Below are positions 10,086 through 35,988 of a stretch of DNA of 57,755 bases, piece after piece. Source of the DNA: a virus; the IMG/VR virus record IMGVR_UViG_3300023115_000024, positions 1 through 57,755 of that record. One strand, given 5' to 3'. Both the position numbers and the translations under genes were made by a program. Position 1 is the first letter of the stretch. The number at the start of each line of letters is the position of its first letter. The notes below the pieces were generated by a model. That model made no database searches. It had not been told where the DNA came from and saw only the letters and a program-made list of their open reading frames with translations.

Positions 10086-10160
10086 TGGAGTGAGCGACAG
10101 GATTTGAACCTGCATAAAACGGATTTGCAATCCGTTGCCTAACCTTTCGACCACGCTCAC
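10086..10160 (-). tRNA. tRNA-Cys (GCA)
   Basis: Cloverleaf with 7-bp acceptor stem GTGAGCG/CGCTCAC, anticodon stem CGGAT/ATCCG and anticodon GCA; T arm with GGTTCAAATCC. The CCA end is encoded. Last of the four-tRNA operon behind the attenuator; its codon TGC occurs in the leader peptide. Confidence 0.93.
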
Positions 10161-10165
10161 ATGTT

Positions 10166-10249
10166 TGGTGGGGAAGGGAGGAATTCGCACCTCCACAGCT
10201 TTCGCGCCGAATTTACAGTCCGGTGGGCTCACTCGTGCCCAGCCTCCCC
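10166..10249 (-). tRNA. tRNA-Tyr (GTA)
   Basis: Class II tRNA with a long variable arm, acceptor GGGGAGG/CTTCCCC, anticodon loop CTGTAAA (anticodon GTA), encoded CCA. Third in the operon; Tyr codon TAT occurs twice in the leader peptide. Confidence 0.93.
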
Positions 10250-10253
10250 AAAT

Positions 10254-10330
10254 TGGTCGGAGTAGTAGGATTCGAACCTACGACCTCTGCATCCCAAATG
10301 CAGCGCACTACCAGGCTGTGCTATACTCCG
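10254..10330 (-). tRNA. tRNA-Pro (TGG)
   Basis: Perfect 7-bp acceptor CGGAGTA/TACTCCG, anticodon stem CTGCA/TGCAG with loop TTTGGGA, anticodon TGG, encoded CCA. Second in the operon; Pro codons CCG and CCA are consecutive in the leader peptide. Confidence 0.93.
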
Positions 10331-10404
10331 TGGCAGGCGAGTAGGGATTTGAACCCCAACGAACGGTTTTGGAGACCGCCATGCTACCATTACATCACTC
10401 ACCC
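10331..10404 (-). tRNA. tRNA-Trp (CCA)
   Basis: Acceptor GGGTGAG/CTCGCCT (two wobble pairs), anticodon stem GCGGT/ACCGT, loop CTCCAAA giving anticodon CCA, discriminator G, encoded CCA. First in the operon: its 5' end is two bases from the terminator T-tract. The leader peptide has one TGG codon. Confidence 0.92.
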
Positions 10405-10406
10405 AT

Positions 10407-10445
10407 AAAAAAAGCCCCCAAACAAATCAATGCTTAGGGGCTTTT
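10407..10445 (-). terminator. intrinsic terminator / attenuator hairpin before tRNA operon
   Basis: In the RNA sense AAAAGCCCC pairs with GGGGCTTTT around a loop of about 18 bases, followed by a run of seven T. It ends two bases before tRNA-Trp and lies downstream of the leader peptide, so it must be read through for tRNAs to be made. CCCCTA of its 5' arm can instead pair with TAGGGG inside the leader peptide gene. Confidence 0.85.
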
Positions 10446-10464
10446 AACGTACTAAAAAGTCACG

Positions 10465-10527
10465 TCAAGACAAACCCCTACCTCCTGGCGGGCACCAATA
10501 CAAATAATTTGTTGCTGTCTTGAACAT
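10465..10527 (-). CDS. 20-residue leader peptide (Tyr-Leu-Tyr-Trp-Cys-Pro-Pro)
   Basis: ATG at 10527 preceded by AGAAGGAA at proper spacing, with TGA at 10465. The peptide contains YLYWCPP at residues 8-14, encoded TAT TTG TAT TGG TGC CCG CCA. The downstream operon encodes exactly tRNA-Trp, tRNA-Pro, tRNA-Tyr and tRNA-Cys. Six of the seven residues in this run are decoded by those tRNAs. The remaining codons (GGA GGT AGG GGT) supply region 2 of the attenuator. Probably a regulatory, not functional, peptide. Confidence 0.75.
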   Translation of the reverse strand: MFKTATNYLYWCPPGGRGLS

Positions 10528-10554
10528 GTTAATATTCCTTCTAAGTATGTATAT

Positions 10555-10583
10555 ACTATAACTTCTTTGTATTTATTTGTCAA
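10555..10583 (-). promoter_or_regulatory. sigma70-type promoter of leader peptide and tRNA operon
   Basis: Minus strand TTGACA, 17-base spacer, TATAGT. It overlaps the stop codon of the 54-residue zinc-ribbon gene; the predicted start (about 10548) leaves a leader of about 20 bases before the peptide ATG. Confidence 0.8.
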
Positions 10584-10737
10584 CCACTTTTTCACATTTT
10601 GCTTTAGTTCCGCAATGTGGACAATGGAAGGTTGCTCTATCTATACAATATTTGTCTTCCATCGTTGCAAAAGTAAAGTAGCCTTTGCAACTGCTGCAAG
10701 TTAAGTGCCAAATAATTTCCTTGACTGCTTTAAACAT
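10573..10737 (-). CDS. zinc-ribbon protein
   Basis: A 54-residue protein with two CxxC knuckles, CSSC (residues 14-17) and CPHC (39-42), and a later Cys; probably one zinc ribbon. Function unknown; small zinc ribbons are common in T4-like phages as transcription or structural cofactors. The ATG at 10737 has no clear Shine-Dalgarno, but an AATAAATA box ends seven bases before it, suggesting a nearly leaderless late transcript. Confidence 0.7.
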   Translation of the reverse strand: MFKAVKEIIWHLTCSSCKGYFTFATMEDKYCIDRATFHCPHCGTKAKCEKVVDK

Positions 10738-10747
10738 TGTAAAGTAT

Positions 10748-11131
10748 TTATTTACTGTGTTTGTCTTTGTAATCTTTTACGGCCGCTTTGATTGCATCTT
10801 CTGCTAAAACTGAACAATGTATTTTTACTGGGGGTAAGGAGAGCTCTCTAGCAATGTCGGTGTTCTTAATCTCAGTGGCATCGTCAAGAGTTTTGCCCTT
10901 GACCCATTCTGTAAGGAGACTAGAACTAGCAATAGCACTGCCGCAACCATAGGTTTTAAATTTTGCATCTTCAATAACACCGTCGTCATTTACCTTGATT
11001 TGTAATCTCATTACATCACCGCAAGCTGGAGCACCGACCATGCCAGTGCCTACACCGTCAGTATCTGGATCCCACTTTCCTACATTTCTAGGATTTTCGT
11101 AATGATCAAGAACTTTCTTGGAGTATGCCAT
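10748..11131 (-). CDS. iscU: IscU-type Fe-S cluster scaffold
   Basis: IscU is the scaffold on which iron-sulfur clusters are built before HscA/HscB-assisted transfer. Read from the ATG at 11131, the 127-residue protein keeps the E. coli numbering: Cys37 and Asp39 (ACGD), Cys63 (YGCGSA), His105 and Cys106 (KIHC), and the HscA-binding motif LPPVK at 99-103. All cluster ligands are intact, so it should be active. No IscS, HscA or IscA gene is visible nearby, so it would plug into the host machinery. The start codon lies inside the 3' end of the upstream small basic gene. Confidence 0.92.
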   Translation of the reverse strand: MAYSKKVLDHYENPRNVGKWDPDTDGVGTGMVGAPACGDVMRLQIKVNDDGVIEDAKFKTYGCGSAIASSSLLTEWVKGKTLDDATEIKNTDIARELSLPPVKIHCSVLAEDAIKAAVKDYKDKHSK

Positions 11132-11300
11132 AGACTGCTTCTCTAAAAGCAGGATCTTGGCCAAACTGAGATGCTGCTTCTGCTCTTCTCTTAGCTAGTA
11201 CTAAGGGCGAGTTTGGCTTGCGCTTTTCACGGTATGCCCCGTGAGAGCTCATTTTAGCTCTTTTGCGCACTCGTCCACTAGTTTTCATTGTCTTCGCCAT
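11106..11300 (-). CDS. small basic protein, unknown function
   Basis: A 64-residue protein with a strongly basic N-terminal half (RVRKRAKMSSHGAYREKRKPN) and a helical C-terminus. The ATG has GGAG upstream. It overlaps the start of iscU by 26 bases. The composition suggests nucleic-acid binding, but no family is recognised; it is not the bS21 homologue, which lies at 29112. Confidence 0.6.
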   Translation of the reverse strand: MAKTMKTSGRVRKRAKMSSHGAYREKRKPNSPLVLAKRRAEAASQFGQDPAFREAVYGILQESS

Positions 11301-11479: not shown

Positions 11480-11489
11480 ATAAACCTTG

Positions 11490-11562
11490 TGGAGCCGGAG
11501 GGAATCGAACCCACGACCTTCTGGATGCAAACCAGACGCTCTCCCTACTGAGCTACGGCCCC
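11490..11562 (-). tRNA. tRNA-Ala (TGC)
   Basis: Acceptor GGGGCCG/CGGCTCC with the G3-U70 pair that identifies alanine tRNAs; anticodon loop TTTGCAT gives TGC; T arm GGGTTCGATTCCC. Unlike the other tRNAs here, CCA is not encoded (CAA follows the discriminator). Confidence 0.92.
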
Positions 11563-11568
11563 TACAAA

Positions 11569-11644
11569 TGGTGCCGGATGCAAGAATCGAACTCGCGACC
11601 TTCTCATTACAAGTGAGCTGCTCTACCTGCTGAGCTAAACCGGC
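11569..11644 (-). tRNA. tRNA-Thr (TGT)
   Basis: Acceptor GCCGGTT/ATCCGGC with one T-T mismatch at pair 6; anticodon loop CTTGTAA gives TGT; CCA encoded. Seven bases upstream of tRNA-Ala in the transcript. Confidence 0.9.
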
Positions 11645-35546: not shown

Positions 35547-35565
35547 GTGTGTCCTTTGTGTGTAG

Positions 35566-35762
35566 CAGCCCGTTCTGTTGCTAGGTGGGCTAGACCCCCT
35601 GTGGTTACGCTGCTAGAGCGAACTCAGATGGTGCAAAGTTATCGTTTGCATTTGTGTTTTGTAAACTTGCCTACCTGTCGAAACCTATTTCGCCCCCTTA
35701 GTGTGTTTATGGTGGAGGCGTCCGGTACCGCCCCGGAGTCCAAATACGCTTTGTAACGTCTA
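35566..35762 (-). ncRNA. ssrA: two-piece circularly permuted tmRNA
   Basis: tmRNA rescues stalled ribosomes and tags the nascent protein for degradation. Gene order is permuted: the acceptor piece comes first (T-arm TCCGG-GGCGGTA-CCGGA, then CGCCTCC, discriminator A, encoded CCA at 35710-35712), a 12-base linker follows, then the coding piece starting GGGGGCG at 35697 with the tmRNA signature GGTTTCGACAGG. The two 7-base acceptor strands pair fully, with G3-U70, the AlaRS identity pair. The tag frame encodes ANDNFAPSEFALAA and stop. Ends are approximate. This permuted form is typical of alphaproteobacteria. Confidence 0.92.
35605..35649 (-). other. tmRNA tag reading frame
   Basis: GCA AAC GAT AAC TTT then ten more codons ending TAA: tag A-ANDNFAPSEFALAA when the charged alanine is added. 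The AND start and LAA end match E. coli (AANDENYALAA); the ALAA tail is the ClpX recognition signal. Confidence 0.9.
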
Positions 35763-35767
35763 CAGTT

Positions 35768-35799
35768 TATTTATACTACCAATGAGCTACTTTTGTCAA
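35768..35799 (-). promoter_or_regulatory. combined early/late promoter of the tmRNA
   Basis: Minus strand TTGACA (35794-35799), 18-base spacer, TATAAA, where the -10 is itself part of a perfect late box TATAAATA (35768-35775). Predicted start about 35762, at the 5' end of the acceptor piece. Confidence 0.75.
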
Positions 35800-35988
35800 C
35801 CGTTTTTGTGAACGGATTGCATCCATTAGACGAAGCAATCTTTTTTTATGATCACTTTTGCGTTCATAATGATTTTTTGCTTTCCATAAGCTATCTGCAT
35901 CTATTTCTGCAGCTAATTTTTCACCTAGTAATTTTTCTAGGTATGATAAATCTTCACTACTCAGATCTTCAATCTTCCGTGAAACCAT
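35776..35988 (-). CDS. 70-residue helical protein
   Basis: From the ATG at 35988: VSRKIEDLSSEDLSYLEKLL, GEKLAAEIDADSLWKAKNHY, then a basic KSDHKKRLLRLMDAI. It overlaps the upstream gene by 20 bases. The longer frame to 36090 is inside that gene and unlikely to be used. Function unknown. Confidence 0.55.
   Translation of the reverse strand: MVSRKIEDLSSEDLSYLEKLLGEKLAAEIDADSLWKAKNHYERKSDHKKRLLRLMDAIRSQKRLTKVAHW

Follow-up and report, generated by a model that had tools for sequence, protein, structure and literature searches.

The viral tRNA operon described here is very probably controlled by a ribosome-mediated transcription attenuator, in which a leader peptide samples the codons of the operon's own tRNAs. 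The parts of such a device, a kept reading frame, three covarying alternative helices and leader codons that track the tRNA set are apparent in the DNA, and together they make strong sequence evidence for a codon-matched tRNA-operon attenuator. That ribosome stalling depends on tRNA supply or charging, and that stalling alters read-through into the operon, is inferred in the absence of expression data, as is the physiological response.

The leader and its tRNA operon

The stretch of DNA analysed (hereafter the window) covers positions 1-57,755 (57,755 nucleotides) of the IMG/VR viral record IMGVR_UViG_3300023115_000024. The leader and operon lie on its minus strand and comprise the following features, with the supporting evidence in brackets.

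10555..10583, minus strand: sigma70-type promoter, TTGACA-17-TATAGT (11/12 matches)
10535..10542, minus strand: ribosome-binding site AGAAGGAA, 8 nt before the ATG at 10527
10465..10527, minus strand: leader peptide gene MFKTATNYLYWCPPGGRGLS, 20 codons, ATG to TGA (TGA at 10467-10465)
10486..10506, minus strand: putative sensing codons TAT TTG TAT TGG TGC CCG CCA, Tyr Leu Tyr Trp Cys Pro Pro (tracking of operon tRNAs, 82 leaders)
10516..10527, minus strand: region 1, 5' strand of the protector helix P1, start codon included (covariation)
10462..10472, minus strand: 3' strand of the protector helix P1, stop codon included (covariation)
10465..10480, minus strand: region 2, antiterminator 5' strand TAGGGGTTTGTCTTGA (covariation; footprint folding)
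10431..10445, minus strand: region 3, antiterminator 3' strand and terminator 5' arm (covariation; region-3 swaps)
10407..10424, minus strand: region 4, 3' arm of the intrinsic terminator and U tract (sequence; covariation)
10331..10404, minus strand: tRNA-Trp (CCA), first gene of the operon (ARAGORN; first in all related operons)
10254..10330, minus strand: tRNA-Pro (UGG) (ARAGORN)
10166..10249, minus strand: tRNA-Tyr (GUA) (ARAGORN)
10086..10160, minus strand: tRNA-Cys (GCA) (ARAGORN)

A sequence-only reading of the window had proposed a 20-codon leader ORF with a ribosome site and the run Tyr-Leu-Tyr-Trp-Cys-Pro-Pro, followed by a terminator and by genes for tRNA-Trp, -Pro, -Tyr and -Cys. 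All its leader coordinates were right, and the four tRNA genes are present in the same order. The terminator stem (10445-10410) leads into a U tract whose last base is 10407, and tRNA-Trp begins at 10404. The competing helices of that reading are likewise all found in the window: a local hairpin over the Cys-Pro-Pro codons, the terminator, and the 2:3 pairing of TAGGGGTTT (10480-10472) with AAGCCCCTA (10443-10435). Its helix scheme requires one amendment, as the main protector is P1, a helix between start codon and stop codon that it had missed and that is better conserved than the local hairpin.

The window also encodes a ribonucleotide reductase with 72-73% identity to the versions of T4-type Synechococcus phages. 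A permuted tmRNA of the alphaproteobacterial type (35564-35802, minus strand) scored 75-82 bits with Rfam and received no call from ARAGORN. Directly upstream of the leader (10573-10737 and 10748-11164, minus strand) are an IscU-type NifU_N gene and a small ORF encoding four CxxC-like cysteines; NifU_N relatives are common across viral contigs, and several records with NifU_N/zinc-finger neighbours are without the attenuator module. A second tRNA cluster lies further upstream (tRNA-Thr and tRNA-Ala, 11489-11644, minus strand), with no such leader ORF or terminator.

Related leaders and their alternative helices

The same module was found on about 110 IMG/VR contigs from uncultured, mostly marine viruses. 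A promoter comes first, then an ORF of 15-24 codons that has a ribosome site, then three alternative helices and a terminator, and last the tRNA operon; tRNA-Trp opens every related operon, and the leader ORF always has an in-frame Trp codon. Because the whole module recurs in viral contigs, we reject a chance origin on this comparative evidence. The first search pattern, GGGGTNTGTCTTRA-N15..45-AGCCCCTA, names neither a sensing codon nor a tRNA. It matched 99 viral stretches, and all matches with enough flanking sequence were preceded by a short ORF that has a ribosome site and followed by tRNA-Trp. The second pattern was leader-blind, consisting of a poly-T terminator and then the tRNA-Trp anticodon loop. 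It retrieved diverged members (L216, L242, L246 and L250 among them), as well as tRNA-Trp genes after ordinary terminators that are unrelated and lack such an ORF; the presence of tRNA-Trp in this second set is not independent evidence, since it was part of the search pattern. The first tRNA of L163 and L242 was missed by ARAGORN and was seen by inspection to be tRNA-Trp.

In 66/74 leaders a TTGAC promoter precedes the start codon by 21-47 nt, and nearly all related leaders follow an AAGGA-like ribosome site. The distances from start to Trp (24-36 nt) and from Trp to stop (12-42 nt) vary, always by whole codons, so that the frameshifted or random leader codons in relatives that would have refuted the attenuator were not encountered. 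In two leaders (L103 and L164) the stop codon comes shortly before the antiterminator, and in another (L270) the ORF runs beyond it, with the Trp codon still in frame in all of them. These leaders bear on the possibility of an arrest peptide, as in TnaC and the Erm leaders, where the nascent peptide would be sensed or would stall the ribosome and a small molecule, not tRNA supply, would control the operon. The peptides are rich in Trp and Pro, RG(M/L)S is a common C-terminus, and a ribosome could be slowed by Trp-Pro-Pro. Against this, L246 and L294 have no such C-terminus, L270 has an altered one, and L103 and L164, whose stop precedes region 2, have lost it; the residues flanking Trp vary with the tRNA set and form no fixed motif, and Pfam returned no match. 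We therefore regard an arrest peptide as very improbable.

A search of whole viral records with model R1 gave no more than one strong copy in any record; the remaining matches were weak (E of at least 0.008) or opposite-strand echoes of the terminator, and no second module was found before other tRNA clusters in these records. The diverged L242, L246 and L294 score weakly with R1, and a pattern scan for L246/L294 yielded no additional member. In isolate phages, blastn with the leader matched only tRNA-Trp or unrelated pieces; the first pattern had no match in 85k prokaryote genomes, and no Rfam or Pfam family matches the leader or its peptide. Two further observations concern individual relatives. 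Compared with 10331-10445 of the window, the contig L003 (7133-7320) differs in its terminator loop and in its tRNA-Trp gene, as if this segment had been exchanged, but its leader peptide is identical and its tRNAs are the same four. A glutamine riboswitch (RF01739, 42.5 bits) occurs in the related viral contig L147 (3047-3095, minus strand).

Covariation was assessed in an alignment of 72 leaders (A1) that was not fitted to the structure, and in which a double-change cell stands for a sequence rather than an event. In P1, the start codon's first base and its partner form A-U in 55 leaders and G-C in 17, without exception. Another P1 pair is C-G in 40 and U-A in 17, a swap by which GTG starts accompany TAA stops. 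In the antiterminator, taken with its small helper hairpin, 8 pairs were changed on both sides versus 3.8 after shuffling, and the terminator had 40 double-change cells versus 9. Protector, antiterminator and terminator thus all covary in the relatives, one of two outcomes set beforehand as decisive by the sequence-only reading, and the mutually exclusive helices that define membership of the attenuator class are met. Swaps of region 3 between sequences were informative only for some diverged members (L216, L246 and L271); elsewhere they were uninformative, because regions 2 and 3 are nearly constant.

The effect of a ribosome was modelled by folding with its footprint masked, which was set to extend from the A-site codon 15 nt upstream and 12 nt downstream. 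The 2:3 pairing formed in 1/75 transcripts with the ribosome at the stop codon and in 71/75 with the ribosome held at Trp. The corresponding class feature, that a stop-codon ribosome blocks the antiterminator and a stall at the sensing codons permits it, is met in folding only, with no experiment. A stall at the last Pro codon covers region 2 in part and weakens 2:3, which bears out a caveat already raised for the second Pro codon. For an untranslated transcript, before region 4 exists, 2:3 was favoured in 65/75 equilibrium folds; P1 forms in 71/75 before region 3, and the local hairpin in 59/75. An off state without translation would need kinetic trapping by P1 and the local hairpin, because equilibrium favours 2:3.

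Leader codons and the tRNA set of the operon

Codons were scored from five before to four after Trp and compared with the tRNAs that follow tRNA-Trp in 75 unique leader/operon pairs. When a tRNA was present, its codon was present in the leader for Cys (39/39), Pro (37/37), Ile-UAU (15/15), Tyr (7/7), Gly (5/5), Gln (8/9) and Ser-UGA (9/12); the figure for Arg-GCG was 0/5. Over 82 pairs, 150/158 co-transcribed tRNAs had a codon in their leader. Permutation of the operons among the leaders predicted 98.6 +/- 4.4 matches, with a maximum of 115 in 20,000, and permutation restricted to groups of similar leaders gave p = 1e-4 to 2e-4. The leader sequences are related, and hence the counts are not independent events. 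Two of the class features are thereby satisfied: the regulatory codons are cognate to the operon product, and the operon is preceded by a short leader ORF, presumed to be translated, that has a ribosome site.

The tRNAs without a matching codon are largely explained, because many of them are preceded by a promoter of their own. A TTGAC promoter occurs in 9/13 gaps above 35 nt and in 0/139 short gaps. For tRNAs after such a promoter the codon was in the leader in 3/15 cases (1.5 expected at the base rate), versus 140/147 for the others.

The match between codons and tRNAs, which the sequence-only reading had proposed for four amino acids, holds in one direction: a controlled tRNA nearly always comes with its codon, and a codon often comes without its tRNA. 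Only the Trp codon with tRNA-Trp first is universal across the relatives. Cys and Pro codons are frequent in leaders without tRNA-Cys or tRNA-Pro; because they are present in 83% and 90% of all leaders, respectively, they are weak evidence in the window alone. The informative codons there, as judged from the relatives, are those for Trp and for Tyr beside Trp; Tyr codons near Trp are found in 7/7 leaders with tRNA-Tyr and 10/70 without.

Sensing of Trp alone was tried as the main reading and dropped after the comparison of codons with operons and the permutation tests. In that reading the other codons would have a structural role (the CC of the Pro codons pairs with region 2) or be inherited, and would agree with the tRNAs by coincidence or through phylogeny. 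Such an attenuator would fit the invariance of Trp alone among the codons, the constant first place of tRNA-Trp, the Cys and Pro codons found without their tRNAs, and the eight unique operons that consist of tRNA-Trp only and retain those codons. We consider it unlikely, given the permutation tests, also inside groups of similar leaders, the control provided by tRNAs with their own promoter, and the isoacceptor match and sister-pair contrasts that follow.

With a UAU-anticodon or CAU tRNA in the operon, leader Ile codons were ATA in 56 cases and ATT/ATC in 0; without either tRNA the numbers were 6 and 32 (p 2e-19). The sole operon with tRNA-Ile(GAU), that of L238, has a leader that uses ATT. 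From the association with ATA we infer that the CAU tRNAs, called Met by ARAGORN, are probably AUA readers, tRNA-Ile2. The UAU-anticodon tRNAs, called Ile and associated with leader ATA codons, mostly have a long variable arm and are class II-like (seen behind leaders L094, L124, L130, L145, L154, L165, L203, L252 and L295); the amino acid that they carry remains open.

Among disjoint sister pairs with differing operons, 12 changes were concordant, 1 was discordant and 51 were neutral. Neutral changes were mostly codons retained without their tRNA, and therefore tRNA loss does not force codon loss. Concordant cases include L203 and L121, with Cys versus Gly directly before Trp and tRNA-Cys versus tRNA-Gly in the operon; L112 relative to L232, where Gly replaces Asn and tRNA-Gly is added; and L246 relative to L294, where CAT replaces CAA and tRNA-His is added. 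The operons of four leaders were read only once the association had been found. They were Trp, Pro, Ser, Cys for L155 (leader Ser-Trp-Cys-Pro-Pro); Trp, Tyr, Pro, Ser-GCU, Cys for L243 (Tyr-Trp-Cys-Pro-Pro); Trp, Pro, Gln for L294 (Gln-Trp-Pro); and Trp, Met-CAU, Gly for L112 (Gly-Trp-Cys). In all, 10/11 tRNAs were matched inside the scored span. For Ser-GCU in L243, an AGC codon lies six before Trp, just beyond the span, and the first tRNA after tRNA-Trp was visible in that contig before the full operon was read. By permutation, sister pairs and later-read leaders alike, leader codons change jointly with the downstream tRNA set, as had been anticipated from the window.

Codon-like triplets that fit the anticodons of the controlled tRNAs, together with an antitermination switch, would also suit a T-box-like device, in which the leader RNA would itself bind uncharged tRNA and the ORF would be incidental. 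However, the triplets keep to the frame of a start codon preceded by a ribosome site, their spacing shifts by whole codons, a single leader matches several different tRNAs, and the T-box covariance model found no match in the leaders even at E <= 10. We give this alternative next to no weight. The interpretation of the window as an attenuator is supported at the level of sequence, and its link to tRNA charging or supply is an inference.

Proposed mechanism and known systems

In the proposed mechanism, RNA polymerase would initiate at the promoter at 10583-10555 and a ribosome would follow on the 20-codon leader. With prompt decoding of the Tyr, Trp, Cys and Pro codons, the ribosome would get to the TGA and cover region 2, the terminator would fold and the four tRNAs would not be made. 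Should any of the four be short or uncharged, the ribosome would stop at the corresponding codon, leaving region 2 free to pair with region 3 before region 4 is made; no terminator would then form, and polymerase would continue into tRNA-Trp-Pro-Tyr-Cys. In an untranslated transcript, region 2 is predicted to be sequestered by P1, the start:stop helix, and by the local hairpin. It is likely that one leader integrates the supply of up to six tRNAs, distinguishes isoacceptors and switches on exactly that set, and that its codons and the operon content have co-evolved to stay matched. By inference, the virus would use it to make tRNAs as needed once the host's capacity for decoding drops, as in starvation, host shut-off or tRNA-cutting defence.

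Why and when viruses express tRNA genes is an old question, and the leader suggests that these particular tRNAs are made when their codons stall ribosomes. It makes tRNA supply in infection testable, describes a feedback circuit with the decoder itself as the regulated product, and may offer a readout of the tRNAs that become limiting in uncultured hosts.

T-box riboswitches resemble the viral module in that tRNA supply controls transcription via antitermination, but they bind uncharged tRNA directly by a specifier loop, whereas the viral module would read it by a translated ORF. In Bacillus subtilis, Trp codons of the anti-TRAP leader peptide (rtpLP) report charged tRNA-Trp; the viral leaders share the Trp codons in a leader peptide, and differ in that rtpLP controls a protein gene. 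The sequence-only reading knew of no tRNA operon under leader-peptide attenuation, and we found none in the literature searched, which left most subscription journals outside its coverage and cannot exclude an earlier case. Among the Rfam leader families (His, Thr, Phe and others) no score exceeded the gathering threshold, the best being His_leader with 24.4 bits against 49.

Judged by its sequence-testable features, which are met, the mode of action is that of classical attenuation. Like the attenuators of amino-acid operons (trp, his, phe, thr and ilv), the viral leaders have a short ORF, predicted to be translated, with regulatory codons, and exclusive protector, antiterminator and terminator helices in which a stop-codon ribosome would cover region 2. 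Leaders of the ilv type combine codons of several amino acids. Unlike those systems, the viral module yields decoding tRNAs, not an enzyme, matches up to six tRNA species to the isoacceptor level, joins start and stop codons in its protector, and often has single sensing codons where classical leaders have runs. As far as we found, the controlled product, the codon breadth and the viral setting are new, and they would extend leader-peptide attenuation from amino-acid genes to tRNA genes.
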